Source: Cyclobacteriaceae bacterium (GTDB taxonomy: Bacteria; Bacteroidota; Bacteroidia; Cytophagales; Cyclobacteriaceae). From it: DNA of 34,369 bases. The position numbers were made by a program, and so were the translations under genes. The notes under the pieces are model-generated. The model saw only the letters and a list, made by a program, of their open reading frames with translations, had not been told where the DNA came from and searched no databases. How positions within the stretch are numbered: the first letter of the stretch is position 1; each line of letters begins with the position of its first letter. The stretch covers positions 1-34,369 of the forward strand of contig JAEUUE010000065.1 in NCBI GenBank assembly GCA_016787605.1, read 5' to 3'. This document shows positions 4,151 through 17,327 of the stretch, one piece after another.

Positions 4151-5830
4151 TTAATACCCCCTTGCCTCATCATCACTCCGCGTTCGGTCCGCCCCGCCTT
4201 CGAGCTTGCCATTGGGGAGAACGAGGATGGCGTCGACACGGCCGATGTTGGGTCGGGGCATGAGCTTATGACCGAGGGCCACGAGGGCAAGGCTGTCTTC
4301 TTTGGCTAACGCACCTTTCTCGGGAATAATCGCATCGGGGAGCCACTGGCTGTGAATACGGCGCGCGTCCACGGCCGCCTGCATGCCCATACCGTGCTCG
4401 ACAACGTTCAGAATCACCTGGAAAACGGAGGTAATGATCGTGGAACCGCCAGGTGAGCCTACTACCATGTGAAGTTTGCCATCTTTCTCTACAATGGTCG
4501 GTGACATGGCGCTCAGCATCCTTTTGTTGGGCTCAATCTTGTTGGCGGTACCGCCGGTCACCCCAAACACGTTGGGCACGCCGGGCTTGGAACTGAAGTC
4601 GTCCATCTCGTCGTTAAGGAAAAATCCGGAACCGGCCACCACAACCTTGTTGCCAAACCACAGGTTGAGCGTAGTGGTCACCGCCACGGCGTTGCCGTCC
4701 TTGTCCACCACGCTGAAGTGGGTCGTCTCTTCGGATTCATAACCGGGAATATTGCCGGCGCTGATTTCCGTGCTGGGCGTGGCCTGTTCGGGGTTGAAAC
4801 TGGCCATGCGGTCGGCAATGTACTTGCTGTCAATTAGCTCGGCCACGGGGACTTTGAAGAAGTCAGGGTCACCCATGTACTTGGCGCGATCGGCGTAAAT
4901 GCGGCGCTCGGCCTCCACCATGGCGTGCACGGACTTCGGGGTGTTGAAGCCCCAGTCCTTGAGTGGCAGGGGCTCTACCGCTTTCAGCAGTTGCACCACA
5001 CACAGTCCGCCGCTGGAAGGAGGAGCCATGGAGATGATCTTGTAGTTCTTGTAGTCGGCCACCACGGGGTCGCGCCATACGGACTTGTAGTTCTTCAGGT
5101 CTTGCAGGGTGATCAACCCCTTGCCGCGCCGCATCTCGGCAACGAGATCTTCGGCGGTCTTGCCCTCATAAAAGCCGGCACGCCCGCTGTCGCGGATGCG
5201 CTCGAGGGTGTGGCCCATGTCAATCCACCGGATGGTGTCGCCTTTGGCCCAGGCCCGCATAAGGAACTCGGGCTTCACGGTGTTGTATTTCTCCAGGTCC
5301 TGCTGCAGGCTGTTGATGTCGTTGGCGCCACGCTCAGTGAGGGGGTAGCCGTTCAGGGCCAGGTCGATGGCAGGCTGCACGAGATCTTTCCATGGAAGCG
5401 AGCCATACTTCGCATGTGCCTCCACCATGCCGTCGACGCTGCCGGGCACGCCTGAGGCGAGGTGACCGTACAGGCTCAGGCCTTCAATCACATTGCCGGC
5501 GCTGTCGAGGTACATGTCGGTGGTCGCCGCAGCAGGAGCTTTCTCCCGGAAGTCGAGGGTGGCGGTTGTGCCATCTTTCAGGCGCAGCACCATGAATCCG
5601 CCGCCACCGATGTTGCCGGCCGCAGGAAATACGATCGACAGGGCGAAGTGGGTGGCGATGGCCGCGTCAACGGCGTTGCCGCCCTTCTTCATGATATCGG
5701 TACCGACCTGGGAGGCCAGCGGGTGGGCGGAGACGACCATGGCGGAGTCGGTCACGAGGCCCACGACGGGTTCTTTGGTCTGGCATGCAACGACCGCAAC
5801 GGCAATCAGCAGGAAGAAAAAACGTTTCAT
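4151..5830 (-). CDS. ggt: Gamma-glutamyltranspeptidase, lipoprotein form
   Basis: This Ntn hydrolase cleaves the gamma-glutamyl bond of glutathione and related peptides and transfers the glutamyl group to amino acids, peptides or water. The precursor of 559 residues begins MKRFFFLLIAVAVVACQTK, so it is exported and lipid-anchored at the Cys of VVAC, unlike the soluble periplasmic E. coli enzyme. The autocleavage site and nucleophile is the first Thr of TTHFSVVDKDG (about T369), giving a roughly 190-residue small subunit. Other family signatures are GFFLNDEMDDFSSKPG, PNKRMLSAMSPTIV, GSPGGSTI for the substrate pocket, and the C-terminal SDDEARGY. Length matches the family. It is divergent from a TetR-type regulator 54 bp away, which is the obvious candidate for local control. 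Confidence 0.96.
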   Translation of the reverse strand: MKRFFFLLIAVAVVACQTKEPVVGLVTDSAMVVSAHPLASQVGTDIMKKGGNAVDAAIATHFALSIVFPAAGNIGGGGFMVLRLKDGTTATLDFREKAPAAATTDMYLDSAGNVIEGLSLYGHLASGVPGSVDGMVEAHAKYGSLPWKDLVQPAIDLALNGYPLTERGANDINSLQQDLEKYNTVKPEFLMRAWAKGDTIRWIDMGHTLERIRDSGRAGFYEGKTAEDLVAEMRRGKGLITLQDLKNYKSVWRDPVVADYKNYKIISMAPPSSGGLCVVQLLKAVEPLPLKDWGFNTPKSVHAMVEAERRIYADRAKYMGDPDFFKVPVAELIDSKYIADRMASFNPEQATPSTEISAGNIPGYESEETTHFSVVDKDGNAVAVTTTLNLWFGNKVVVAGSGFFLNDEMDDFSSKPGVPNVFGVTGGTANKIEPNKRMLSAMSPTIVEKDGKLHMVVGSPGGSTIITSVFQVILNVVEHGMGMQAAVDARRIHSQWLPDAIIPEKGALAKEDSLALVALGHKLMPRPNIGRVDAILVLPNGKLEGGADRTRSDDEARGY

Positions 5831-5840
5831 GGAGTAAAGT

Positions 5841-5870
5841 TTTGTCTAATTGAGCCTAAATGTATTATTT
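5841..5870. promoter_or_regulatory. Overlapping divergent promoter elements between ggt and the TetR gene
   Basis: In the 54-bp gap a plus-strand TTTG (5841-5844) is followed after 18 nt by TATTATTT (5863-5870), a partial TAnnTTTG for the regulator. On the minus strand TACATTTA (5857-5864) is a 7/8 -7 element for ggt. The two -7 elements overlap by two bases, so a protein bound here would affect both genes. No clear palindromic operator was seen. Confidence 0.35.
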
Positions 5871-5884
5871 CCGTTCCAATCCCT

Positions 5885-6511
5885 ATGAGCCTCCGCAAAG
5901 AAAAGGCCGCCCGCCTCAAACTGGCCGTCCTCGACCATACCCTCAAGCTGATCGGCCGCCGGCCATTCGAGGATCTCTACGTGGAAGACATCTGCCAGCG
6001 GGTCAAGATCTCGAAGGTGACCCTGTTCAAGTACTTCCCTGTCAAGGAAGACATCCTGGCCTATTACTTCCGCGTGTGGTGCCTGCGCCGCACGGTGGAA
6101 CTGCGGGAAAAGCCGAAGGAGGGTGTCCAGGGAGTAGTCTACCTGTTCGACAAGCTCTCCGAGGACTTCGACCAGCACCCGGGCATTATGCTGAGCGTGG
6201 TCGGTTACCTCTCAAACCCCAAGCGACCGCCGAAGCCGTTCCCGCTCAAAGCGGAGGAGAAGAAACTGCTGTTCCCCGACGTGGCCGACATCCACAATGT
6301 GGAGATCATGAGCATCGAGCAACTGATGGAGAAATTCGCGCTGGAGGGAGTATTCAAAAAAGAGTTTACGAAAACGAGCAACACGAGGGAGATCACCCAG
6401 TTGCTGATGACCTTGTTCTTTGGTTCGCTAGTCACGCTCCAGTTGACGCAGGTGAGTCCGACGAAGCCGATGTTGAGAAGAATGGTGGAGCTGGCGGTGA
6501 AGGGAATGTGA
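5885..6511 (+). CDS. TetR/AcrR family transcriptional regulator
   Basis: A DNA-binding repressor of 208 residues. Residues about 8-55 form the TetR helix-turn-helix domain: helix 1 LKLAVLDHTLKLIGRRPFED, then VEDICQRVKISKVTLFKYFPVKEDIL, where KVTLFKYFPVKEDIL is the classic recognition helix and turn (T-L-F-K-Y-F). The C-terminal two thirds are helical and would bind a ligand and dimerise; ligand not predictable. The frame is open far upstream, but that part is antisense to ggt, and the ATG at 5885 gives a normal TetR N-terminus. It is divergent from ggt, so autoregulation and control of ggt is a reasonable inference. Confidence 0.9.
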   Translation: MSLRKEKAARLKLAVLDHTLKLIGRRPFEDLYVEDICQRVKISKVTLFKYFPVKEDILAYYFRVWCLRRTVELREKPKEGVQGVVYLFDKLSEDFDQHPGIMLSVVGYLSNPKRPPKPFPLKAEEKKLLFPDVADIHNVEIMSIEQLMEKFALEGVFKKEFTKTSNTREITQLLMTLFFGSLVTLQLTQVSPTKPMLRRMVELAVKGM

Positions 6512-6513
6512 AT

Positions 6514-6612
6514 GTTTCACGCGGAGGCGCTAAGGCGCAAGCAAGCCGCAATTGACTTCAACCATACCATACCTTCGCGCCTTAATGGCGTCTTGGCGAG
6601 CTTTGGGTGAAC
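6514..6612. repeat. Imperfect inverted repeat of GC-rich intergenic type
   Basis: TAAGGCGC (6531-6538) pairs exactly with GCGCCTTA (6577-6584), and an outer arm TTCAC (6516-6519 region) can pair with GTGAA near 6607. It occupies the convergent gap between the TetR gene and the small lipoprotein. It resembles dispersed palindromic elements rather than a classic terminator. Confidence 0.4.
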
Positions 6613-6618
6613 AATTAA

Positions 6619-6834
6619 TTATCCTTTCATCCTGACTTTCTTCGCTCCCTGCTTATCCCCGAATGGGTGGAGGTCGACGCGGAGAGGGCCGATCTGCTTC
6701 TTGTGCCACCGGCTCTTTTTGTACCAGGTGTGATGGTACCTCGGCTTGATGACCTTGACGGTGTGATAGGTCTTCGATCCCGACGAGCAGGACCCCAGCA
6801 TCACACAAACCGCAATGGCCAGGAGGTATTTCAT
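6619..6834 (-). CDS. Small basic lipoprotein (71 aa)
   Basis: A short exported lipoprotein of unknown function. The leader MKYLLAIAVCVMLGSCSSGS has lipobox LGSC. The mature part of about 55 residues is very rich in Lys, Arg, His, Trp and Tyr (for example YHHTWYKKSRWHKKQIGP) with no acidic cluster. That composition suggests electrostatic binding to peptidoglycan, LPS or nucleic acid, but no family is recognised. It is alone on the minus strand, convergent with the TetR gene and divergent from the large SUMF1-domain gene at 6941. Confidence 0.75.
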   Translation of the reverse strand: MKYLLAIAVCVMLGSCSSGSKTYHTVKVIKPRYHHTWYKKSRWHKKQIGPLRVDLHPFGDKQGAKKVRMKG

Positions 6835-6883
6835 GCCTGAATAACGTACAAGTTACCAAAACCATTGTATTCTCAGCGCCTCC

Positions 6884-6918
6884 GCGCCTCTGCGGTTAAT
6901 CCCCCATCGCAGAGACGC
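6884..6918. repeat. Inverted repeat in divergent intergenic region
   Basis: GCGCCTCTGCG (6884-6894) and CGCAGAGACGC (6908-6918) form an 11-bp stem with one mismatch and a 13-nt loop. The flanking text (CGCCTCCGCGCCTCTGCGG) resembles the element at 6514-6612. It lies between two divergent promoters, so it is not a normal terminator. Confidence 0.5.
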
Positions 6919-6928
6919 ATAGAAATGC

Positions 6929-6936
6929 TAACTTGA
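6929..6936 (+). promoter_or_regulatory. -7-like element directly before an ATG
   Basis: TAACTTGA matches TAnnTTTG at six of eight positions counting the two free ones, and is followed by four bases (TTTC) and then the ATG at 6941. The same spacing recurs at 30857. If used, the transcript would have little or no leader. Confidence 0.3.
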
Positions 6937-6940
6937 TTTC

Positions 6941-9688
6941 ATGATTCGAGTTCTTACTTCCGCACTAATTCTCATCGCCATACCGGGTTTCACCCAGACC
7001 GTCGAAGTTTCTGCCGGCAAAGCCAGGAGGGTAGCCATTGAAGGCTATAGTATTGCACTCGACCGCCCCCTGGTAGCCTATCAGCTTGGCGACAAATGGT
7101 ATAACTCCTCGGAAAACTCCCCGTTGCAGATTACCACCGCGAAACCCGACTCCGGACAGGCGGCCCTGGTGGTGACGTTCCTCAACACTTCCAAAGACAC
7201 CCTGCGGCTCCACAACGTGGTACCTTTGGCGCCACAGCCCACCGAGATCTTCATCACCGGCAAAGGAGACCATCGCCTCTCACGTACTCACCTGTCCCGG
7301 CCCGGAAAGGTGCCGGTCAACGTCATCGTGCCGGACAATGCCTGGGACCTCGGCTACATCAGCCTCGACCAGCCGGGAGGTGTGCACCTCTACGCGCTCA
7401 CGCGGCGTATCCCCAACTCGTGGGACAAGGCCACACGCCGCCGGTTTGAGACTGTGATCAACCCGGGCGGTTCGGTGAAATACAATTTCTTCGTGGGTCA
7501 CTTTGAAGGAGAATGGCAGAACGGGCTTCGCCGATGCTTCCAGGAAAGGAAGCTCTACGACGTCGATAAGTTCGATGATGCCATGTTCCATCGAGCCGAC
7601 CTCCGCTGGATCCGTGACGCGTACGTCATGCACCTGATGGGGGCGTGGGATAAGGATTATTATGACATTGTCTCGGGGCAGTTCAACTGGAGGAAGTTCC
7701 AGCAACGCGGCGCCCGGCTCTACGGCGGTGATGACGTGATCTGCCTATGGCCCACGTGGCCTACCTTGGGCCTCGATCCCCGCAACCAGTTCGACATGTA
7801 CCGCGACCTTCCCGGCGGGTTGCCCATGCTTCGGGCGCTTGCCGACTCGCTGAGGAAACACGGGACGAAATTCTTCATCAGCTATAACCCCTGGGACGAG
7901 AGCACGCGAAGTGAAGGGCACCTCAACGGGTTGGCCGACCTGATCAAAGCCACCTCGGCGGATGGCGTCGTCCTCGATACAAAAGGGGAGTCCTCGCGGG
8001 AGCTGCAATTGGCCGCCGATGCCGTCAAGCCAGGCGTGATCATGTACAGCGAAGGCATGGCGGTGCCCAAGGACATGCCCGGCATTGTCTCCGGCCGCGT
8101 ACACAATGCCTTGTACTACCCGCCCATGCTGAACCTCAACAAGCTCATCAAGCCTGACTTCGCCATCTTTCGGGTAGCTGAAGTTTTTAAGGAGCCCATC
8201 CAGCGCGAGTATGCCACCGCCTTCTTTAACGGCTACGGTACGGAGATCAACCAGTTTGCACCCGGTCATCCCGACTATGAAGAAGAGCAGTATCGATACC
8301 TCGGCAAGACCTCGATGATCCTGCGCGAGAACACCTCGGTCTTTCACACGCCGGCATTCACTCCGCTGGTGCCCACACTGCGCGACAGCCTGTGGGCCAA
8401 CAGCTGGCCGGCGGCGGGGAAGCATATCTACACGCTCTTCAGCCTGAAACCCGGTGGGTACCGGGGTCCGCTGATGGAAGTGAAACCCCGTGACGGGTGG
8501 CATTGGGTCGACCTGTGGCACCATGAAGAAGCAACGGTGGCGGCGCAAGGTGAGAAGCACGCAGTTCATGCCTGGCTGGATGCCTTCGACAGTCGTTACC
8601 TGAGGACCAACAACGAAGGGCAGGCTGGCTGCCTGGCGGAGTTTCCGGTTAACATCCGGACCGAACTGAAAAGCGGTGTGCTGGTAGTCAGCACCGACGC
8701 CCAGCTCATCAAGGTATGGGCCGGCGATCCGTCCTACGAAAAGAAGCCCCTGACCCTCCAGGGAGGGAAGCAGCAGGTGAACATCCGCGGGCAGTTTGGG
8801 CGATATGAAGGGAAGTTCGTTGTACAGGCCTTCACCAACGGCGAGCTCGTCGATGAGGCCTACGCGTACCTCAAGCCCGGTGTGCCTGTACCCATCTCGG
8901 TGGTGACCCGCACCCCCGGCTATGATAAGGCCCCTGAAGGAATGATGCGGGTCCCGGACGGCAATTTCGTACTGAAGACCACCCACGGAGATGATTTCAT
9001 CCCATACCCGGCCGACAGCAAGGACAACGTGCAGGTCAAGGCGTTCTACATGGACAAGTTCCCCGTCACGAACGCCCAATTCAGGAAGTTCCTTTCCACC
9101 ACTGGCTACAAGCCCACAGACACGGCCAACTTCCTGCGGCATTGGAGGCGCGGAGAGATTCCGAAAGGGCAGGAGAACTTCCCGGTAGTCTACGTCTCGT
9201 GGGAAGATGCCAGAGCCTACGCCAGTTGGGCTGGGAAGCGCTTGCCTACCGAGGCTGAGTGGCAGCATGCGGCCCAGACGCCGGCCGGCAACGAGTGGCC
9301 CTGGAAGCAGACCAAACCCGTGACGCGCAAGGAGCAATACGTCACGGAGACGCTCACGGTGAAGGCCATTGAAGGAATCGATCCGAAGCACTGCAACCTC
9401 GGCGACGGCCGGCCGTACCCGGTAGGTAAGTACCCGAAGGGCGCCAATCCGTACGGGCTTCAGGACCTGGTGGGCTGCGTCTGGCAGCTCACGAATGACC
9501 TGTACGAGAGCGGTAGTTACCGGTACATTATCATGAAGGGAGGCAGCTATTATAAGCCCTCCTCCAGCTGGTGGTACGTGCAGGGAGGGCCGAGGGAGTT
9601 GCACTACCGGCAATACCTCCTGCGGGTTTCGCAGGGCTTCGAGCGGAATGCCACCGTGGGCTTCCGGTGCGTGGCTGATGTAAAGTGA
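6941..9688 (+). CDS. Exported protein: unassigned TIM-barrel-like glycosidase region fused to a SUMF1 (FGE-sulfatase) domain
   Basis: A 915-residue exported protein starting MIRVLTSALILIAIPGFTQ, a signal peptide cut after TQ. Residues about 20-190 are beta-rich. About 190-470 reads like a (beta/alpha)8 barrel, with strand-end motifs DDVICLWPTWPTLGLD, FFISYNPWDES, ADGVVLDTKGES and VIMYSEGM, similar in style to clan GH-D or GH31 glycosidases; I cannot assign a family. A beta region follows. Residues 668-915 are a SUMF1 domain: MMRVPDGNFVLK, MDKFPVTNAQFRKF, PVVYVSWEDARAYASWAGKRLPTEAEW, YGLQDLVGCVWQLTND, and the end GFRC. Genuine formylglycine-generating enzymes have two Cys after RGGS; here the text is KGGSYYKPSSSW, with Lys872 and Trp877 in their places. 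The domain is therefore probably a binding module rather than a sulfatase activator. It stands alone, with no sulfatase nearby. Confidence 0.85.
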   Translation: MIRVLTSALILIAIPGFTQTVEVSAGKARRVAIEGYSIALDRPLVAYQLGDKWYNSSENSPLQITTAKPDSGQAALVVTFLNTSKDTLRLHNVVPLAPQPTEIFITGKGDHRLSRTHLSRPGKVPVNVIVPDNAWDLGYISLDQPGGVHLYALTRRIPNSWDKATRRRFETVINPGGSVKYNFFVGHFEGEWQNGLRRCFQERKLYDVDKFDDAMFHRADLRWIRDAYVMHLMGAWDKDYYDIVSGQFNWRKFQQRGARLYGGDDVICLWPTWPTLGLDPRNQFDMYRDLPGGLPMLRALADSLRKHGTKFFISYNPWDESTRSEGHLNGLADLIKATSADGVVLDTKGESSRELQLAADAVKPGVIMYSEGMAVPKDMPGIVSGRVHNALYYPPMLNLNKLIKPDFAIFRVAEVFKEPIQREYATAFFNGYGTEINQFAPGHPDYEEEQYRYLGKTSMILRENTSVFHTPAFTPLVPTLRDSLWANSWPAAGKHIYTLFSLKPGGYRGPLMEVKPRDGWHWVDLWHHEEATVAAQGEKHAVHAWLDAFDSRYLRTNNEGQAGCLAEFPVNIRTELKSGVLVVSTDAQLIKVWAGDPSYEKKPLTLQGGKQQVNIRGQFGRYEGKFVVQAFTNGELVDEAYAYLKPGVPVPISVVTRTPGYDKAPEGMMRVPDGNFVLKTTHGDDFIPYPADSKDNVQVKAFYMDKFPVTNAQFRKFLSTTGYKPTDTANFLRHWRRGEIPKGQENFPVVYVSWEDARAYASWAGKRLPTEAEWQHAAQTPAGNEWPWKQTKPVTRKEQYVTETLTVKAIEGIDPKHCNLGDGRPYPVGKYPKGANPYGLQDLVGCVWQLTNDLYESGSYRYIIMKGGSYYKPSSSWWYVQGGPRELHYRQYLLRVSQGFERNATVGFRCVADVK

Positions 9689-9775: not shown

Positions 9776-10630
9776 ATGAGAGCCATCTGGAAGGGTCACA
9801 TTCGATTTTCACTGGTAACGATACCCATCCGGGTTTACAATGCCATTGACTCGGCGCAGACCTTGAGTTTCAACCTGCTGTCGAAGGAAGGGCACAACCC
9901 GGTGGCTTACGAGAAGAAAGACAAGGTGACGGGCCAGGTGCTGCGGCAGGAAGATATCGTGAAGGGCTTCCAGTACGAGCCTGGGCAGTTTGTGATCATC
10001 GACGAAGAGGACTTCAACAAGGTCCGGCTCAAGAGCACCAAGGTGATCGACATCGAAGGCTTCGTGAAGGCATCGGAGGTACACCCGACGCTGTTCGACG
10101 CCCCGTATTTCATCGGTCCCGATGGCGACGTCGCGGCCAAAACCTACGCGTTGCTGTGCAAGACGCTGAAGGAGTCGGGCAAGGTGGGCGTGGGACGGGT
10201 AGTGCTCCGCGACCGCGAGACGGTGGTGCTGCTGACGCCGGAGAAGAACGGAATTTTGCTCTACAAACTCCGCTATCCCAACGAAGTAAAGAATATAGGT
10301 GAGGTGCCTCAACTGCTTGAAGATGTTAAGGTTGACAAAGCGCAGATCAAGATGGCCAAGATGCTGGTGGACAGCATGACCAAGCAGTTTGTCGACATCG
10401 AGATGAAAGACCACTACCAGGACGCGCTGCGGAGCATGATCCAGGCCAAAATCGACGGCAAGGAGATCGTGAGTGTGCAGGAAGAGGAGACTCCCGTGGT
10501 GGATATCATGACGGCGCTGAAGGCCAGCATCGAGAAGGCGAAGAAGCCCATGGAAAAAGCCAAGGGCAAGCAGGCCAAGGAGAAGAAGAAGGCTACCAAA
10601 GAAGTCAAGGCGCGCCGCAAGGCCGGCTAA
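9776..10630 (+). CDS. ku: Ku protein, non-homologous end joining
   Basis: Bacterial Ku binds broken DNA ends as a ring-shaped homodimer and recruits ligase D. The start MRAIWKGHIRFSLVTIPIRVYNA is the canonical bacterial Ku N-terminus, followed by the bridge-region motifs YEKKDKVTGQVL, FVIIDEEDF, IDIEGFV and YFIGPDGDVAAKTYALL. At 284 residues it has the usual length, ending in a Lys-rich tail (from about residue 255, KAKKPMEKAKGKQ onward) as in other bacterial Ku C-termini that help DNA binding. No ligase D or primase gene is adjacent, although Ku and LigD are often neighbours. The -7-like TACTTTTTG (9765-9773) lies two bases before the ATG. Confidence 0.97.
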   Translation: MRAIWKGHIRFSLVTIPIRVYNAIDSAQTLSFNLLSKEGHNPVAYEKKDKVTGQVLRQEDIVKGFQYEPGQFVIIDEEDFNKVRLKSTKVIDIEGFVKASEVHPTLFDAPYFIGPDGDVAAKTYALLCKTLKESGKVGVGRVVLRDRETVVLLTPEKNGILLYKLRYPNEVKNIGEVPQLLEDVKVDKAQIKMAKMLVDSMTKQFVDIEMKDHYQDALRSMIQAKIDGKEIVSVQEEETPVVDIMTALKASIEKAKKPMEKAKGKQAKEKKKATKEVKARRKAG

Positions 10631-10632
10631 GG

Positions 10633-10663
10633 TTGTATTCGGCTGATTCATGCGGTATCTTTG
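10633..10663 (+). promoter_or_regulatory. Complete Bacteroidota promoter immediately before the TPR gene
   Basis: TTG (10633-10635), a 20-nt spacer, and TATCTTTG (10656-10663) match the Bacteroidota -33/-7 consensus TTG-N19/20-TAnnTTTG. The ATG at 10668 follows after four bases (CCGC), so transcription would begin at or very near the start codon. This also fixes the start at 10668 rather than the in-frame ATG at 10650. Confidence 0.6.
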
Positions 10664-10667
10664 CCGC

Positions 10668-11261
10668 ATGGCCAAGGTTGTCAAGTTTCCTGTACAGCCA
10701 CCCGAGAAGTTCGGTTTCCGCCCTGTGCGGAAGAAGCGCGAGTCTCCGGCTCCAAAGAGCGGCCAACTTAACCTGTTTACCGGGGCCAAGGTCGTGCGGC
10801 TCAACCAGCTCAGCCCGTTTGAAGAGGCCCTGATGCTCGACGAGCACAACGACAAGACCGCCAAAGAGCACTACCTCAAAGCCATCAAGGAAGGCGATAG
10901 CGTGGCGGATGCGTACTGCAACCTGGGCATCCTGGAGAGCAAACTGAAGAACTTTCCCAAAGCCATCGACTGCTTTACGCTGAGCCTCAAGGAGGATCCT
11001 CGCCACTTTGAATCGCACTACAACCTGGCCAATCTCTACGCCGAGATCGGCAACCTGCCGTTAGCCAAGGTCCATTACCAGATGTCGATCAGCATTGAGC
11101 CGGAGTTTCCCAACAGCTACTTCAACCTCGGACTCACGCTGGCCATGAACCACGAGATCAACGAGGCCGTCGAGATGCTCCTCGAGTACCGCCGCCGTAC
11201 CACCGATGACGACCACAAGCAGGTGGATGAGTTGATTGAGAGTTTGATCCGGACCGTCTAA
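10668..11261 (+). CDS. Tetratricopeptide repeat protein (197 aa)
   Basis: A cytoplasmic scaffold-type protein with about four TPR units and no signal peptide. A basic N-terminal tail (MAKVVKFPVQPPEKFGFRP) precedes a run of 34-residue repeats: KTAKEHYLKAIKEGDSVADA, YCNLGILESKLKNFPKAIDC, HYNLANLYAEIGNLPLAKVH, and YFNLGLTLAMNHEINEAVEM, each with the alternating small and large residues of TPRs. It follows ku by 37 bp but has its own promoter. A role with Ku is possible but there is no direct evidence; the partner is unknown. The start is set by the promoter at 10656. Confidence 0.9.
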   Translation: MAKVVKFPVQPPEKFGFRPVRKKRESPAPKSGQLNLFTGAKVVRLNQLSPFEEALMLDEHNDKTAKEHYLKAIKEGDSVADAYCNLGILESKLKNFPKAIDCFTLSLKEDPRHFESHYNLANLYAEIGNLPLAKVHYQMSISIEPEFPNSYFNLGLTLAMNHEINEAVEMLLEYRRRTTDDDHKQVDELIESLIRTV

Positions 11262-12207: not shown

Positions 12208-12726
12208 TCAGGGTGAGGCGTAGCGTTTGATAACCTTTTTGGCGCGGCAGACAAATCCTGAACTGGCGTAGGGGAGTTGCTCCTCCAGGATGAGAATCAG
12301 TTCCCGTTGGAGATCGGGATTGGAGCGGGCCAGGTTGTCGGCGACGGTCATGGAAAATACGCGGATAGCCGGGGCTTCGGCGGGGTCAGCAACAAAGGCA
12401 AAGCAGGCATTGGCGACCGCACCCTGGAGACGCCTCGGCACATCGACGAACTGCAGGAGCCGCACGATTGACCGCTTTGCCGCATCCTGCAAACCGGGCT
12501 TCCCGAGTTGTCCGACCAGGCGGCTGAGGTGTGGCTTGACCAGCTCCGGGTGTTGCTCTACGCAGTAGCTCAGTGGCCATGCGGCCCGCACCTGGATCCC
12601 TGGCGACCCACCAAGAAGGTGGTCAACCAGCTGTCCAAAGCGGTCAGAATCCTTGCCCACCCACCGGATAATTGCATCCGTCGATTGGCGCGAATTGGCC
12701 TCTTTGAGGGCTTTTTCAAGGTTCAT
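12208..12726 (-). CDS. HEAT-like helical repeat protein (172 aa)
   Basis: A cytoplasmic alpha-helical protein with no signal peptide and no catalytic motif. The sequence looks like four to five HEAT-type helix pairs: IRWVGKDSDRFGQLVDHLLG, QVRAAWPLSYCVEQHPELVK, LSRLVGQLGKPGLQDAAKRS, then IRVFSMTVADNLARSNPDLQ, ending LEEQLPYASSGFVCRAKKVI. The phrase RAAWPLSYCVEQHPELV resembles adaptin- or HEAT-repeat hypothetical proteins seen in Bacteroidota; function unknown. It is divergent from a 42-residue membrane peptide, with an 18-bp palindrome between them. Confidence 0.78.
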   Translation of the reverse strand: MNLEKALKEANSRQSTDAIIRWVGKDSDRFGQLVDHLLGGSPGIQVRAAWPLSYCVEQHPELVKPHLSRLVGQLGKPGLQDAAKRSIVRLLQFVDVPRRLQGAVANACFAFVADPAEAPAIRVFSMTVADNLARSNPDLQRELILILEEQLPYASSGFVCRAKKVIKRYASP

Positions 12727-12824: not shown

Positions 12825-12953
12825 ATGATTACATTTTTTGCTATCGTGGCTTTCCTGGTATTCCAGATTGGTGTTTGTGCCCTCTCCATCTATTTGATTG
12901 GAGCACGGCGTCACCGCAAGCTGATCGACAAGGGTTTATTCTCCGCGTTCTGA
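12825..12953 (+). CDS. Putative 42-residue single-pass membrane peptide
   Basis: The ATG at 12825 opens a short frame ending in TGA at 12951-12953. The product is MITFFAIVAFLVFQIGVCAL followed by SIYLIGARRHRKLIDKGLFS and AF: one hydrophobic helix (about residues 2-26) and a basic cytoplasmic tail. The positive-inside pattern is what a real small membrane protein shows, and a longer overlapping frame in this place has no such layout. A -7-like TAGTTTAG lies at 12794-12801. Its last 18 bp overlap the 3' end of the convergent thioesterase gene. No family is recognised. Confidence 0.5.
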   Translation: MITFFAIVAFLVFQIGVCALSIYLIGARRHRKLIDKGLFSAF

Positions 12954-13361
12954 GCGAAGCACGAGATCAATCTCCGGTGCTATTCGTTTGGGCTTCCCGG
13001 AAACGGGATCCAACAGGCACCAGGTCGTTTCCGCGTAAGCCAGAACCTTGCGGTCACGTGTACGCTGTATGGACACATGCCTTACCGACCGTGCTCCCTG
13101 GGCAGCATCCACCCAGGTGATCAGTTCCAGTTCGTCTCCCTCCACGGCCGATACGAAATAGTCTACCAGGTGCCTCATCACCACCCAGCGGCACTGGGCT
13201 CGCATTTCTTCCGGCGCAGCCGACTTCCAGTGGGCATCGGCCACATCCTGTACCCAGCTGACGTAGACCACATTGTTGACATGATCGAGGTTATCAATAT
13301 GCTCCCGCGACACCCGGAGCGGCATGCGATAAACCTGTTGGTTGATGGGAGGGTTGACCAT
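12936..13361 (-). CDS. Acyl-CoA thioesterase, 4HBT hotdog family
   Basis: A hotdog-fold thioesterase of 141 residues that hydrolyses an acyl-CoA to free acid and CoA. The motif EHIDNLDHVNNVVYVSWVQD is the 4HBT/YbgC-type signature around the central helix. It continues into RHLVDYFVSAVEGDELELIT and a final strand pair with RKVLAYAETTWCLLDP, as expected for a single hotdog unit. It is the last gene of the five-gene minus-strand operon, starting 5 bp after the stop of the upstream SDR. The likely role is recycling or releasing the product of the operon's acyl-CoA chemistry (inference). Confidence 0.9.
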   Translation of the reverse strand: MVNPPINQQVYRMPLRVSREHIDNLDHVNNVVYVSWVQDVADAHWKSAAPEEMRAQCRWVVMRHLVDYFVSAVEGDELELITWVDAAQGARSVRHVSIQRTRDRKVLAYAETTWCLLDPVSGKPKRIAPEIDLVLRSERGE

Positions 13362-13366
13362 AGCGA

Positions 13367-14197
13367 TTAGCGCACCTTCCTGGCGGCGGCTTCAAATCCT
13401 TCTTTTACCATCTTCCTGAACCGCGTAGGGGCCAGGCGCTTCCAAATCCAGGCCTTGCGGGCCACTTGAGGTAAGATAATGTAGAACTCCCCTTTCCCTG
13501 CCCGTTGGAGGATCTCGACGGCCACGTCCCGAGCTTCGATTCCGGAACGTTCAATGAAAAACTTCGTCGTCTTCTTTACCTGTTCACCCCCACGTACACT
13601 TTCGGCAATGTTGGTCCTGAAGTAGGAGGGCTGAATGCAGGAGACCCTGATGTTGTAATCCATGAGTTCGCCATAGAGTGTCTCGCTGATGGCTACCACG
13701 GCAGCCTTGGTCATGTTGTAGGCCCCCATGGTCGGGGCACAGCTGATGGCGGCCAGGCTGGCGGTATTCAGGATGTGCCCGGAGCGCTGGTTCTTGAAGG
13801 CGGGGATAAAGTAGTGGCATCCGTACACCACACTCAGCTGGTTTACCCGCACCATCCACTCCCAGTTGTCGAGGGAATACTCTTCAAACATGCCTCCGTC
13901 TCCGACCCCTGCATTGTTGAATAACAGGTCGATACCACCGGCCGCATTTAAGAAATCCTGAGCCACCTGGCGGTACTGTTCGCGGTCGCCCACATCGAGC
14001 TGGAAGCGAAGGGTTTTGGCGCCCAGTTTCTCAAACTCAACAGCGGCCAGGGCCAGTGCTTCGGCCTTGATGTCGGCGATACCCAGGGTCCAGCCGTCCT
14101 TGGCCAGTTCGGAGCAGAGGGCCTTGCCCAGACCGGAGGCGGCGCCGGTGACGAAAGCGCGGCGCTGAGGATGGAGGGATGAAAGAGTGTATTCCAT
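13367..14197 (-). CDS. Short-chain dehydrogenase/reductase (276 aa)
   Basis: A classical SDR that oxidises or reduces a hydroxyl or keto group with NAD(P). The cofactor glycine motif is TGAASGLG (residues about 17-24), with an acidic residue after beta-2 (IADIKAEA) that favours NAD. LLFNNAGVG, a Ser strand (HILNTASLAAIS) and YNMTK (the YxxxK catalytic pair) follow. The longer C-terminus, with VARKAWIWKRLAPTRFRKM, suggests a membrane-near or lipid substrate. It is fourth in the operon, 17 bp after the APH-fold kinase gene and 5 bp before the thioesterase. Confidence 0.92.
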   Translation of the reverse strand: MEYTLSSLHPQRRAFVTGAASGLGKALCSELAKDGWTLGIADIKAEALALAAVEFEKLGAKTLRFQLDVGDREQYRQVAQDFLNAAGGIDLLFNNAGVGDGGMFEEYSLDNWEWMVRVNQLSVVYGCHYFIPAFKNQRSGHILNTASLAAISCAPTMGAYNMTKAAVVAISETLYGELMDYNIRVSCIQPSYFRTNIAESVRGGEQVKKTTKFFIERSGIEARDVAVEILQRAGKGEFYIILPQVARKAWIWKRLAPTRFRKMVKEGFEAAARKVR

Positions 14198-14214
14198 AAG
14201 ATGGCACAGATGAG

Positions 14215-15267
14215 TTAAAGCGATTCCTTTTCCACGGCATTCATTCCACGCTTACCCAGGTCGCGGATGACGTGGATGAGCTGCCCGAACCTGGGATCCT
14301 TGGAATGGCCCTGCTTCCAGCGGGCGTAGATTTGCTGGGCAATCACGGCGTTCTTGAAGAGTCCAAATACGTAGTAGAAAATGGGGCTTTTCACGGGTTG
14401 CCCGCCACCGGCCAAATAGCGCTCCACCACCTGCTTCCGCGTCAGGTTGCCGGGCAGCCAGGAAATGTTAAAAACCTTGGCGAGGTCGCTATCGCCAGGT
14501 TCGCACCAATAGGCCAGCGAAGCACCCAGGTCCATCCACGGGTCGCCCACTGTCGACATCTCCCAGTCCAGGACTCCAACAATCTCGGGCAGTTGCCCTT
14601 CCCGAAATACGATGTTGTCATACTTGTAATCATTATGAAGAAAGGCGGGAGGGCCGTCCGCGGGCTGGTTGGCCATAAGCCACGTGGTCAACTCGTCCAT
14701 GTCCTGGATTACCTCGGTCTGCGCGGCCTGGTAGCGCTTCGTCCATCCATCAACCTGGCGGCTGATATATCCTTCTGGCTTACCTAATTCTATCAGTCCG
14801 GTTGAATGAATGTCCAGCTTGTGCAGCACCAGCAGATTATCCACGATGGCTTCTGAAAGTGCCTTCATTTCGCTGGCTCCCAGGTCGATTTCTTTCAACA
14901 TGGCAGGCCGCAGGATGATGCCGGTGAGCCGCTCCATCAGGTAGAAGGGAGCGCCGATGACGGACGGGTCTTCGCACAGAAGGATGGGCTTCGGCACTTT
15001 GGCGTAGTGCGCCCGAAGGAGGGACAGCACCTTGAACTCCCGTCCCATGTCGTGCGCCGATTTGATGGCGGCACCCACGGGCGGTCTGCGAAGGATCACT
15101 TCGCCGCGGTCCGTTTCCAGCAGGTAGGTGAGGTTGGAATACCCTCCCGGAAACTGGCGTTGCCTTGATACTCTGCCTACCTCGGGGAAGCCCGACAAGT
15201 AGGCATTCAGCTTTTCCAGGTCGACTTCCTCTCCCTGCCTGGTCTCCCGGGGTTGGTCGGCGTGCAT
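14215..15267 (-). CDS. APH-fold phosphotransferase, ACAD10/11 N-terminal type (LvaA-like)
   Basis: A small-molecule kinase of the aminoglycoside-phosphotransferase fold, in the branch that is fused to the dehydrogenase in animal ACAD10/ACAD11. Visible motifs are QFPGGYSNLTYLL (nucleotide loop), VILRRPP (the Lys/Arg strand), the catalytic HNDYKYDN (H211, D213, N218) and the metal-binding DWE (D234). Length, 350 residues, fits. In Pseudomonas putida the homologous LvaA phosphorylates the 4-hydroxyl of 4-hydroxyvaleryl-CoA. It is encoded between the ACAD gene (start 3 bp after the ACAD stop region) and the second SDR, so kinase and dehydrogenase here are separate but adjacent. Antibiotic resistance is very unlikely in this context. 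Confidence 0.9.
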   Translation of the reverse strand: MHADQPRETRQGEEVDLEKLNAYLSGFPEVGRVSRQRQFPGGYSNLTYLLETDRGEVILRRPPVGAAIKSAHDMGREFKVLSLLRAHYAKVPKPILLCEDPSVIGAPFYLMERLTGIILRPAMLKEIDLGASEMKALSEAIVDNLLVLHKLDIHSTGLIELGKPEGYISRQVDGWTKRYQAAQTEVIQDMDELTTWLMANQPADGPPAFLHNDYKYDNIVFREGQLPEIVGVLDWEMSTVGDPWMDLGASLAYWCEPGDSDLAKVFNISWLPGNLTRKQVVERYLAGGGQPVKSPIFYYVFGLFKNAVIAQQIYARWKQGHSKDPRFGQLIHVIRDLGKRGMNAVEKESL

Positions 15268-15269
15268 GC

Positions 15270-16487
15270 TTAGCGTTTCTTCCTCAGGTCAAGGCCGTAT
15301 CCCTTGAGGATGTTGATGGCCATACTTTGCTTGTGGACTTCGTCGGCACCGTCGTAGATCCGGGCCCCGCGTTCGTGTTGATAGAGCGTTGCCAGCATTG
15401 TGCCGTCGGTGAGGCCGAGGGCGCCATGCACTTGTATGGCCCGATCAAGTACTTTTAGCATCACATTGGCTGTGAAAAACTTAATGCCTGATATCTGATG
15501 CCGGGCTGCGGCAGCTCCTTCGCGATCAATGGTGTCGGCGGTCCGCAACACCAGCATCCGGGCCGCATCGATCTCGACACGGCTTTCGGCGATGAACCCC
15601 TGGATAAACTGCTTTTGCCCGAGCATGACCCCTTGCTCGATCTCCCGGCTTACGGCCCTCCGGCACATGAGGTCAAGGGCTTTCTCGGCAATGCCGATCC
15701 ACCGCATACAGTGGTGAATTCGCCCCGGGCCTAGTCGTTCCTGTGCCAGTTTAAACCCGGCGCCTTCATCGCTGATCCGGTTAGTGACGGGAACCCTACA
15801 ATTCTCATATCGCACCTCTGAATGGCTGGCCCATCCACCTCCGGCTTCACCCATGACAGGTATTTTGCGGACATGGTTAAAGCCCTTCGTGCCTGCCGGC
15901 ACAATGATCATGCTGGCCCTTTGATGAACAGGTGCCTCGGGATTTGTCACGGCCATGACAATCGAGAACGCGGCTCCTTCCTCACTGGAAGTGAACCACT
16001 TATGGCCGTTGATGACATAATCGTTTCCTTCCTTTACCGCCGTAGTGGCCAGCCGGGTAGGATCTGACCCGGCGAGTGCCGGTTCCGTCATAGCAAAGCA
16101 GCTGCGGATTTTGCCTTGTGTGAGGGGATGGAGGTACTTCTGCTTTTGTTCCGGCGAGCCGAACTTGCTCAGCAACTCCATGTTGCCGATGTCGGGGGCC
16201 TGGCAATTGAAGGTATAATGACCATACAGCGGTGCTCGTGCAAGCCATTCGCTCAGTTGTCCGAACTCGCAGAGCGTCAGACCCAATCCGCCTTCTTCCT
16301 TCGACAAATGGATTCCCCATAGACCGGCCTTCCTGACCAGTTCCCGCTTTGCATCCAGCAGGGCGTAAGTTTCCTGCGGAGAGCGATGATGGTGGCCTTG
16401 CTCCAGAGGGATGAGTTCGGTTTCTACGAAGGATTTGACTTTGGGAAGCAGCTCTTTAAGTCGTTCTGTCGAGAAGATGGGTTCCAT
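15270..16487 (-). CDS. Acyl-CoA dehydrogenase, ACAD10/11 type (LvaC-like)
   Basis: A flavoprotein of the acyl-CoA dehydrogenase fold, 405 residues, with the helical N-domain, the middle beta domain (CFAMTEPALAGSDPTRL) and the C-terminal helical domain. Features typical of the ACAD10/11 branch rather than ordinary fatty-acid enzymes are NCQAPDIGNMELL, LGPGRIHHCMRWIG and the end motif RIYDGADEVH. In MCAD-like enzymes the catalytic base is the Glu of YEGT; here the aligned residue is Asp379 (YDGA). Family members act on 4-phosphoryl-acyl-CoAs and convert 4-hydroxy to 3-hydroxy acyl-CoA via loss of phosphate. The gene follows the first SDR by 61 bp and directly precedes the kinase. Confidence 0.93.
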   Translation of the reverse strand: MEPIFSTERLKELLPKVKSFVETELIPLEQGHHHRSPQETYALLDAKRELVRKAGLWGIHLSKEEGGLGLTLCEFGQLSEWLARAPLYGHYTFNCQAPDIGNMELLSKFGSPEQKQKYLHPLTQGKIRSCFAMTEPALAGSDPTRLATTAVKEGNDYVINGHKWFTSSEEGAAFSIVMAVTNPEAPVHQRASMIIVPAGTKGFNHVRKIPVMGEAGGGWASHSEVRYENCRVPVTNRISDEGAGFKLAQERLGPGRIHHCMRWIGIAEKALDLMCRRAVSREIEQGVMLGQKQFIQGFIAESRVEIDAARMLVLRTADTIDREGAAAARHQISGIKFFTANVMLKVLDRAIQVHGALGLTDGTMLATLYQHERGARIYDGADEVHKQSMAINILKGYGLDLRKKR

Positions 16488-16490
16488 ATT

Positions 16491-16518
16491 GTTCCGAGTT
16501 CAGAGTTCCTAGTTCCGA
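16491..16518. repeat. Heptamer tandem repeat, four units, inside an operon gap
   Basis: Four consecutive 7-bp units are visible: GTTCCGA, GTTCAGA, GTTCCTA, GTTCCGA. They fill much of the 61-bp gap between the first SDR and the ACAD gene, right next to the ACAD start codon. The units differ from those at 12172, but the period is the same. Confidence 0.75.
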
Positions 16519-16548
16519 GTGAGTAGTATGAGGCCTGGTCCCTAGCCC

Positions 16549-17298
16549 CTAAATCACCGTTCCGCCGTCGGCGTAGAAGAGTGTTCCGGTGCAGTAGCCG
16601 GAGACATCCGACGAAAGGAAGAGGGCGAGGGCGGCGATTTCCTCGACGGTGCCCATGCGGCCCATAGGGACCTGCTTCAGGAACCGCTTGAGCATCGCCT
16701 CATCCTGCCAGATCGCCTGGGAGAACTTGGTTTTGATCAGCCCCGGGCAGATGGCGTTCACCCGGATGTTGTCAGGAGCCCATTCCTTGGCCAGCACTTT
16801 CGTCAGCATGTTCAGGGCGGCTTTGGAGACGGAGTAAATGCCCAGGCCGGGGTCGGGCGTGTCGCCGGCGATCGAACTCAGGTTAATCACGGACCCGCCT
16901 CGCTTCTTCAACTCAGGGTAAGCGTATTTGCATAGCTCGAACGGCGCCTTGACGTTGACGGTCATGATTTTGTCGTAGGCCCACTCCGGTGTTTCCACGG
17001 CCGATCCGAAGACGGGGTTGGCGGCGGCGTTGTTGACGAGGATATCGAGTCGGCCAAACGCGGAGACGGTCTGGTCGATCAGCGATTTGCAGGTGGCCAC
17101 GTCACCGGCGTTTCCAGCCAGGGCAAGGCATTCGCCGCCGGCATCGCGGACGAGGTTGGCCACCTTGTCGATTTCTTCCTGCTTGCGGGAGTTGATTACT
17201 ACTTTGGCGCCGTGTGCGGCGAGGGTGAGGGCGATGGCTTCGCCGATGCCTTTGCTGGCCCCGGTGATCAACGCGACTTTATTCTTCAGGTCTTTCAT
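16549..17298 (-). CDS. Short-chain dehydrogenase/reductase, DHRS4-like (249 aa)
   Basis: A classical NAD(P)-dependent SDR. It has TGASKGIG for the cofactor loop, SRKQEE after beta-2 (an Arg that favours NADP), ILVNNAAANPVFG, the Ser strand SVINLSSIAG, and the catalytic YSVSK. It ends in a normal YCTGTLFYADGG. The NNAAANP phrase is typical of DHRS4-like carbonyl reductases. MKDLKNKVALITGASKG from 17298 is the standard SDR start; an in-frame ATG six codons earlier at 17316 is also possible and lies 11 nt after the -7-like TATTTTTA (17328-17335). It is the first gene of the operon, so it would read into ACAD, kinase, SDR and thioesterase. Confidence 0.92.
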   Translation of the reverse strand: MKDLKNKVALITGASKGIGEAIALTLAAHGAKVVINSRKQEEIDKVANLVRDAGGECLALAGNAGDVATCKSLIDQTVSAFGRLDILVNNAAANPVFGSAVETPEWAYDKIMTVNVKAPFELCKYAYPELKKRGGSVINLSSIAGDTPDPGLGIYSVSKAALNMLTKVLAKEWAPDNIRVNAICPGLIKTKFSQAIWQDEAMLKRFLKQVPMGRMGTVEEIAALALFLSSDVSGYCTGTLFYADGGTVI

Positions 17299-17327
17299 AA
17301 CGGACGCCGACTTCATTCGGCTGAAGC

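Follow-up and report, generated by a model that had tools for sequence, protein, structure and literature searches.

The stretch of DNA considered here, referred to as the window, comprises 34,369 nucleotides of contig JAEUUE010000065.1 (assembly GCA_016787605.1) from a Cyclobacteriaceae bacterium. On its minus strand, at 12936..17316, lie five open reading frames (ORFs) with ATG start codons, in the order SDR1-ACAD-kinase-SDR2-thioesterase, where SDR stands for short-chain dehydrogenase/reductase and ACAD for acyl-CoA dehydrogenase. SDR1 (16549..17316, 255 aa) is a predicted NADP(H)-type short-chain reductase with R44 and the catalytic residues Y161 and K165. It is followed, after 61 bp, by the ACAD (15270..16487, 405 aa), a predicted 4-phosphoacyl-CoA eliminase of the ACAD10/11 type with R251, H259, R262, and D379, and, after a further 2 bp, by a kinase of the aminoglycoside phosphotransferase (APH) fold (14215..15267, 350 aa), a predicted 4-hydroxyacyl-CoA kinase with R170, D213, N218, and D234. 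SDR2 (13367..14197, 276 aa), separated from the kinase gene by 17 bp, is a predicted NAD(H)-type dehydrogenase with D42 and the catalytic residues Y160 and K164. The last gene, 5 bp beyond, encodes a hotdog-fold thioesterase of the YbgC/FadM/acyl-ACP-thioesterase type (12936..13361, 141 aa), to which we assign an accessory role. All five proteins meet the Pfam cut-off for their own family, and none passes an NCBIfam equivalog model (among the best 25 models listed for each SDR). A first-pass annotation, made from the sequence alone, had described these five genes, their gaps and motifs, and Asp379, all of which stood when the ORF and motif positions were re-read. It had also proposed a separate ACAD10/11-like kinase and dehydrogenase as a candidate 4-hydroxyacyl-CoA route, a prediction in keeping with the diagnostic residues and the conserved operon described below.

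We consider it likely that this operon would feed acids carrying oxygen at carbon 4 into beta-oxidation by a side entrance. At its centre stands the predicted conversion of 4-hydroxyacyl-CoA to 4-phosphoacyl-CoA, and of the latter to 2-enoyl-CoA, by the kinase and the ACAD; this route is well supported by homology, because ACAD11-type residues are found in the ACAD and matching residues in the kinase. The best PDB matches of the ACAD are M. abscessus 4hr3 (270 bits) and human and mouse ACAD11 (267-269 bits), with the next ACAD at 152, and its identity to ACAD11 is 39%. The motif NCQAPDIGNME begins at residue 94 and YDGADEVH at 378, which puts an Asp at 379. In mouse ACAD11, R626, H634, and R637, beside the catalytic D753, have been proposed to explain the acceptance of 4-phosphoacyl-CoA; the HCMR motif is essential and the Asp is catalytic (PMC12440821; this paper, PMC11342911, and PMC6692424 are cited throughout from the parts available). 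The equivalents in the window are R251, H259, R262, and D379, and all four residues are present in 72/72 ingroup rows of the alignment, the window, human, and mouse sequences included. They occur together in 0/4 outgroup ACADs, three of them from the same genome as the window, and all four outgroup sequences have Glu at the Asp position. A length filter excluded two own-genome ACAD matches, L002 and L006, along with the truncated ACAD of locus L074.

Phylogeny places the ACAD more precisely. The tree comprises 73 hand-picked rows, including 18 of the best 80 of 582 loci, with the three own-genome ACADs and 5ol2 as outgroup. Clade A (23 rows, support 100/100) holds ACAD11 together with sequences from M. 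abscessus, Deinococcus, Burkholderia, Azospirillum, Streptomyces, and a few Bacteroidota. The window falls in clade B (45 rows, 98/98), with the other Bacteroidota and with rows from Planctomycetota, Chloroflexota, Acidobacteriota, Gemmatimonadota, and Ignavibacteriota, for a total of six phyla (mostly metagenome-assembled genomes, with the phylum as titled). Bootstrapping recovers each clade as one side of a single branch in 98-100% of replicates, and the union of the two against the outgroup has support of 100/97. Thus, the window ACAD lies outside the clade that holds ACAD11, in its sister. The first-pass annotation had suggested a phylogeny as a check and had taken grouping outside an ACAD10/11-LvaA/C clade as evidence against its reading. 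The outcome goes half against it: the ACAD lies in the sister of the clade with ACAD11, although it groups with ACAD11 against other ACADs. Pseudomonas putida LvaC is 56-62% identical to ACAD10/11 (PMC11342911), which suggests that it belongs to clade A, a placement made only through this published identity. The window ACAD is kin of ACAD10/11 and very probably works as they do, though it lies outside the ACAD11 clade. A kinase-ACAD-SDR trio on a megaplasmid of Cupriavidus sp. P-10 (L034, about 4935-8024) has an ACAD with the Asp and THCMR, on a long branch outside both clades, and may represent a third lineage with this chemistry.

The kinase contains HNDYKYDN at 211 and DWE at 234 and is 33% identical to the kinase of ACAD11, which is its second-best match in the PDB. 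The best is 9o56 (E 1.5e-87), a structure titled "aminoglycoside phosphotransferase" that by sequence resembles a relative of the 4-hydroxyacyl-CoA kinases, so its deposited name may mislead. The window residues R170, D213, N218, and D234 correspond to R176, D220, N225, and D240 of mouse ACAD11, the last of which, in this fold, is metal-binding, and they are kept in 74/74 rows; mouse R86, at which the alignment is uncertain, and the kinase of L153, which has an in-frame stop, were left out. In ACAD11, D220 is catalytic, N225 is its helper, and R176 contacts CoA in a published simulation.

A tree of 72 hand-picked kinases, which takes in the same 18 of the best-80 loci wherever a kinase is present, plus two more, and in which LvaA is not among the rows, puts the window kinase in a 64-row clade (98/99). 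The neighbour of this clade is a 6-row clade (100/100) in which the ACAD11 kinase is joined by kinases from Ralstonia, Sphingopyxis, Burkholderia, Azoarcus, and Caballeronia. The division does not follow that of the ACADs: 13/19 kinases located beside clade-A ACADs fall in the 64-row clade of the window. When kinases are labelled by the clade of the neighbouring ACAD (62 rows), three label changes are needed, all forced by starred branches. For example, the clade-A-partnered kinases of L145-L147 group with the clade-B-partnered kinase of L050 (99/94), and the clade-B-partnered kinases of L148, L150, L216, L220, and L240 group with Deinococcus kinases that have clade-A partners (98/85). This exchange of partners between kinase and ACAD lineages of different clades suggests that clades A and B share one reaction and act on products of the same kind. 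At one of these loci, L150, which belongs to a Bacteroidota group of four (L148-L151), a gene for an AidB/ACDH-11-like acyl-CoA dehydrogenase (567 aa) sits between the ACAD and the kinase, and L148, L149, and L151 have ORFs of 558-601 aa in the same interval.

The kinase gene is present in 18/40 genomes sampled from the genus, 20/60 from the family, and 27/296 from the phylum, with the window's own genome counted each time and 5 of the 27 phylum-level matches being weak (E above 1e-10). In a scan of genome contigs anchored on the ACAD, of which the best 80 of 582 confirmed loci were used, the kinase is located beside the ACAD in 62/80. To compare neighbourhoods, 122 distinct clade-B-type ACAD loci were pooled from several searches, with five duplicates merged; the sample is non-random, and 104 of its loci have an adjacent kinase. 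An ACAD with at least 50% identity to that of the window was counted as clade B, SDR2 required at least 60%, and 3-hydroxyacyl-CoA dehydrogenase (3HCDH) at least 50%, all on the same strand and within 4.5 kb. Presence was scored by tblastn, because choosing ORFs by their length had given wrong gene calls at plasmid loci rich in G+C.

The same five genes, in identical order and strand, are found at L072, L075, and L076, all from the same genus, with versions cut by contig ends at L073 (the first four genes) and L074 (from an ACAD fragment to the thioesterase). At L077 and L078 all five genes are present but the thioesterase comes first, and L079 has ACAD-kinase-SDR2. Across L072-L079, identities to the window are 72-83% for the ACAD, 66-85% for SDR1, 62-80% for SDR2, 55-69% for the kinase, and 42-53% for the thioesterase. 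This recurrence within the genus shows that the five genes did not come together by chance. The conservation anticipated by the first-pass annotation thus extends to close relatives, but farther out the core is reduced to SDR1-ACAD-kinase, or to the two genes ACAD-kinase: SDR1 is found in 63/104 of the kinase-adjacent loci, and the thioesterase, found solely in close relatives, in 7/104. In Chitinophagaceae (e.g., Sediminibacterium and Flavihumibacter), the order is SDR2-SDR1-ACAD-kinase. Eleven loci of the family have a gene for a PIG3-type NAD(P)H:quinone oxidoreductase close to the operon, mostly in divergent orientation; PIG3-type enzymes act on quinones and similar compounds. L039, one of the loci with such a gene, has a TetR regulator, and homologues of this regulator are found at other loci.

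The gene that accompanies this core differs between operons. Among the 104 kinase-adjacent loci, a 3HCDH (PRK08293-like) is present in 37, SDR2 in 26, neither in 41, and both in 0. When the comparison is limited to the 93 loci with at least 1.5 kb on both flanks, the numbers are 35, 23, 35, and 0, respectively. 3HCDH is the next beta-oxidation enzyme but one after the step that forms 2-enoyl-CoA. The exclusion extends to whole genomes, as seen in 29 chosen ones: a 3HCDH orthologue is present in 15/15 genomes of the 3HCDH type (at least 56% identity) and absent from 12/12 of the SDR2 type, where the best matches have at most 34% identity and three genomes are only 79-87% complete. In two others, G346 and G287, the retrieved stretch contains neither SDR2 nor 3HCDH, and the 3HCDH orthologue is absent genome-wide. 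The genome of the window has three 3HCDH-domain matches over the cut-off outside the operon. L134, L136, and, judged from its gene content, L233 have an ACAD nearest the 3HCDH-type group, yet carry SDR2 and no 3HCDH; the ACAD of L136 was placed in a quick tree, and that of L134 also in the 73-row tree. In the kinase tree, the kinases of L134 and L136 belong to the SDR2 group, and the pattern looks like one exchange of a kinase-SDR2 pair. A divergent PIG3-type gene is located beside many 3HCDH-type operons (L039-L045, L047, L048, L053, L139, L142, L144, and others).

The cofactor motifs of the two SDRs differ. In SDRs, an Arg at this position marks a preference for NADP, and an Asp a preference for NAD. 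R44 of SDR1, together with its catalytic Tyr and Lys, is kept in 72/72 aligned rows, and D42 of SDR2 in 35/35, 7 of the latter coming from outside such operons (both sets at least 45% identity, duplicates kept). The top NCBIfam model of SDR1, PRK07035, is below its cut-off, whereas the broad subfamily model PRK07231 is passed. In length, SDR1 equals the LvaD homologue of Pseudomonas citronellolis (255 aa; PMC6692424), and SDR1 has the NADP-type motif. We propose that SDR1 is a 4-ketoacyl-CoA reductase with an LvaD-like role. The first-pass annotation had assigned both SDRs to the keto/hydroxy step; SDR1 alone fits there. SDR2, which alternates with 3HCDH, probably replaces it and acts after the enoyl-CoA stage, because of the mutual exclusion and the NAD-type cofactor motif.

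Together, these predictions describe a pathway. One of the cell's general CoA ligases would activate the carboxylic acid, and SDR1 would reduce a 4-ketoacyl-CoA to the 4-hydroxyacyl-CoA. By homology to the kinase domain of ACAD11, the APH-fold kinase would transfer the gamma-phosphate of ATP to the 4-hydroxyl. The ACAD, if it behaves as its homologues do (PMC12440821, PMC11342911), would then eliminate the phosphate to give 2-enoyl-CoA, using FAD without net oxidation. A hydratase encoded elsewhere would yield 3-hydroxyacyl-CoA, which SDR2 would oxidise with NAD+ in place of the 3HCDH of the sister operons. The thioesterase may free CoA from stalled or overflow acyl-CoAs, the weakest step of the scheme.

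The likenesses to known systems are partial. Mammalian ACAD10 and ACAD11 have the same two catalytic parts, with the same R/H/R/D in the ACAD and R/D/N/D in the kinase (as compared for ACAD11), but they are kinase-ACAD fusions, whereas the window has two genes, an ACAD of the sister clade, a kinase of the neighbouring clade, and in addition SDR1, SDR2, and the thioesterase. Like the window, the P. putida lva operon (LvaA-LvaE) encodes the kinase, the ACAD, and the SDR as separate proteins within a single operon (PMC12440821, PMC11342911, PMC6692424). It differs in having LvaB, a ligase, a transporter, and LvaR, none of which is found between or beside the window genes; in lacking SDR2 and the thioesterase; and in an LvaC that, by its published identity, probably belongs to a clade from which the window ACAD is excluded. 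In proteobacterial plasmid clusters with an ACAD-SDR-kinase-histidine phosphatase arrangement (L027 and L030-L032), the SDR2-like gene is 32-40% identical to that of the window, and L027 also has an SDR1-like gene (43%); their ACADs are from clade A, and the added histidine phosphatase gene is present there and not in the window. A histidine phosphatase gene is likewise located beside the clade-B ACAD and kinase at L221 and L235, both from Planctomycetota. The SDR1-ACAD-kinase-3HCDH operons of other Bacteroidota (e.g., Algoriphagus litoralis, L231) have a homologous core trio and ACADs 55-61% identical to that of the window, but with 3HCDH replacing SDR2, the thioesterase not found, and often a divergent PIG3-type reductase.

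The gaps of 2-61 bp leave no room in the operon for a gene encoding LvaB, the 12 kDa partner of LvaA. A search of the genome for DUF6285, a family to which LvaB may belong, was empty. No CoA ligase, transporter, or sigma-54 regulator LvaR is encoded among the immediate neighbours scanned. The first-pass annotation had taken the lack of LvaB and a ligase as a sign that the operon may use a different partner or entry point. No such special partner is needed, because the P. citronellolis cluster also does without lvaB, because lvaE is dispensable in P. putida, and because the genome of the window, outside the operon, yields 7 matches to the AMP-binding family that exceed the cut-off. In P. citronellolis, the lva genes are clustered with levulinate-induced genes, and, in the available part of the source, lvaB was not found and a histidine phosphatase gene is present instead (PMC6692424); the cluster of strain LA18T thus lacks LvaB, as the window does, and has a histidine phosphatase gene that the window operon lacks. 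In P. putida, mutation of lvaE does not abolish growth on levulinate (PMC6692424).

Several observations weigh against the proposed pathway. In the ACAD tree, the program flagged long branches (L034 and the outgroup) converging on the root, which leaves the union of clades A and B against the outgroup less certain than its support. P. putida LvaA and LvaC are not among the rows of the two trees. Residues specific to clade B adjoin the active site, a W at position 263 occurring in none of the clade-A rows shown, and the functions proposed for clade-B enzymes are drawn from homology. There is no kinase beside the ACAD in 18/80 of the best 80 of 582 loci, 6 of which have less than 1.4 kb of contig downstream. 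For SDR2, the Fisher p value for its exclusion of 3HCDH among the 93 well-flanked loci, 2e-6, is too strong, given shared ancestry and few independent events (mainly one kinase clade), and 35/93 of these loci have neither gene. Lastly, SDR2 homologues (53-59% identity) are also found in 7 stretches that lack such a kinase, which marks SDR2 as a recruited generalist.

The acids that would enter the pathway may be of several kinds. An appreciable possibility, though we would not bet on it, is salvage of medium- or long-chain 4-hydroxy acids from lipid oxidation or gamma-lactones, rather than levulinate, as in mammals, where ACAD10/11 act on 4-hydroxy fatty acids (PMC12440821, PMC11342911). The PIG3-type gene near the 11 family loci would fit this idea, and an enzyme resembling FadM and acyl-ACP thioesterases would suit longer acyl chains; the window operon itself has no PIG3 gene, however, and the chain length preferred by its thioesterase is not predictable from the sequence. 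Somewhat more doubtful is that clade B acts on another hydroxyacyl-CoA (e.g., one that is branched, isoprenoid, or hydroxylated at another carbon) with the same logic of phosphorylation followed by elimination. The substrate of clade B may differ, because identity to ACAD11 is only 39% and clade B has its own residues beside the active site. A total of 25 columns separate clade B from clade A (at least 90% in B, at most 10% in A); position 263, directly after R262, is W in 42/45 clade-B rows and F in the other 3, against L, A, or S in clade A, and the Y or W before D379 is also clade-specific. A deep branch divides the two clades. Set against this, the swapping of kinases between clade-A and clade-B ACADs argues for a shared substrate class. 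It is unlikely that the operon is a true lva-type system dedicated to levulinate or 4-hydroxyvalerate. Its SDR, ACAD, and kinase match the classes of LvaD, LvaC, and LvaA, and the P. citronellolis cluster is also without LvaB (PMC6692424), but there is no room for LvaB, and the immediate neighbours scanned encode neither a CoA ligase nor a symporter nor a sigma-54 regulator. In addition, the ACAD is outside the clade that holds LvaC by published identities, and SDR2 and the thioesterase are extra. That an ordinary acyl-CoA dehydrogenase merely sits beside an unrelated small-molecule kinase, with no phosphoacyl chemistry, is conceivable only in that both families are very large, and we reject it on the tree, the ACAD10/11-type residues in 72/72 rows with Asp for Glu, and the adjacency across several phyla.

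The side entrance for 4-oxygenated acids can also be set in a wider, tentative frame, which we hold to be less likely than not. In it, clade B would form a distinct branch of phosphate-eliminating ACADs, so far undescribed and present in at least six bacterial phyla, whose own substrate range is set by the aromatic residue beside the catalytic arginine. Two versions of its operon would finish differently, one with a 3HCDH-type enzyme (probably S-specific) and one with SDR2 (possibly for the opposite 3-hydroxy stereoisomer), and in the lineage of the window the thioesterase would act as a release valve.

This branch of the operon family and its gene partners seem to be undescribed, whereas the chemistry itself is known; in the openly licensed literature, nothing was found on 4-hydroxyvalerate and acyl-CoA dehydrogenase in Bacteroidetes. 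The functions of ACAD10/11 were assigned in 2024-2025, with the bacterial side, in the available parts of these papers, represented by pseudomonads and one tested Burkholderia pair (PMC11342911, PMC12440821). The present analysis adds a second ACAD clade, deep and with identical active-site residues, that extends over Bacteroidota and further phyla. The genes are carried by cultured organisms, including Algoriphagus litoralis (3HCDH type), Sediminibacterium sp. C3 (L179, SDR2 type), and Spirosoma fluviale. The SDR2-type and 3HCDH-type operons provide a natural comparison that makes the substrate range and the downstream step testable, and the re-paired kinase and ACAD lineages, as natural chimeras, could show whether recognition between the two proteins is required.

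Genes for M29-like and beta-lactamase-like proteins flank the operon on one side, and genes for an unassigned 172-aa protein and a DUF3667 protein on the other. Matches in a promoter and terminator scan were no more frequent than in shuffled sequences. The 172-aa protein (12208-12726, minus strand) has no Pfam or NCBIfam match; homologues with 44-56% identity are encoded on the same side of the operon at L074-L078. Part of the 61 bp between SDR1 and the ACAD is occupied by direct repeats of GGAACT/GGAACTC units (16491-16519, minus strand). Allowing up to 2 mismatches, this pattern has 9 matches in the genome, three of them overlapping at one place, and its reversed control has 0. Elsewhere in the window, a gene for a Ku domain protein (non-homologous end joining; 9776-10630, plus strand) is followed by a TPR-repeat gene (10650-11261, plus strand).

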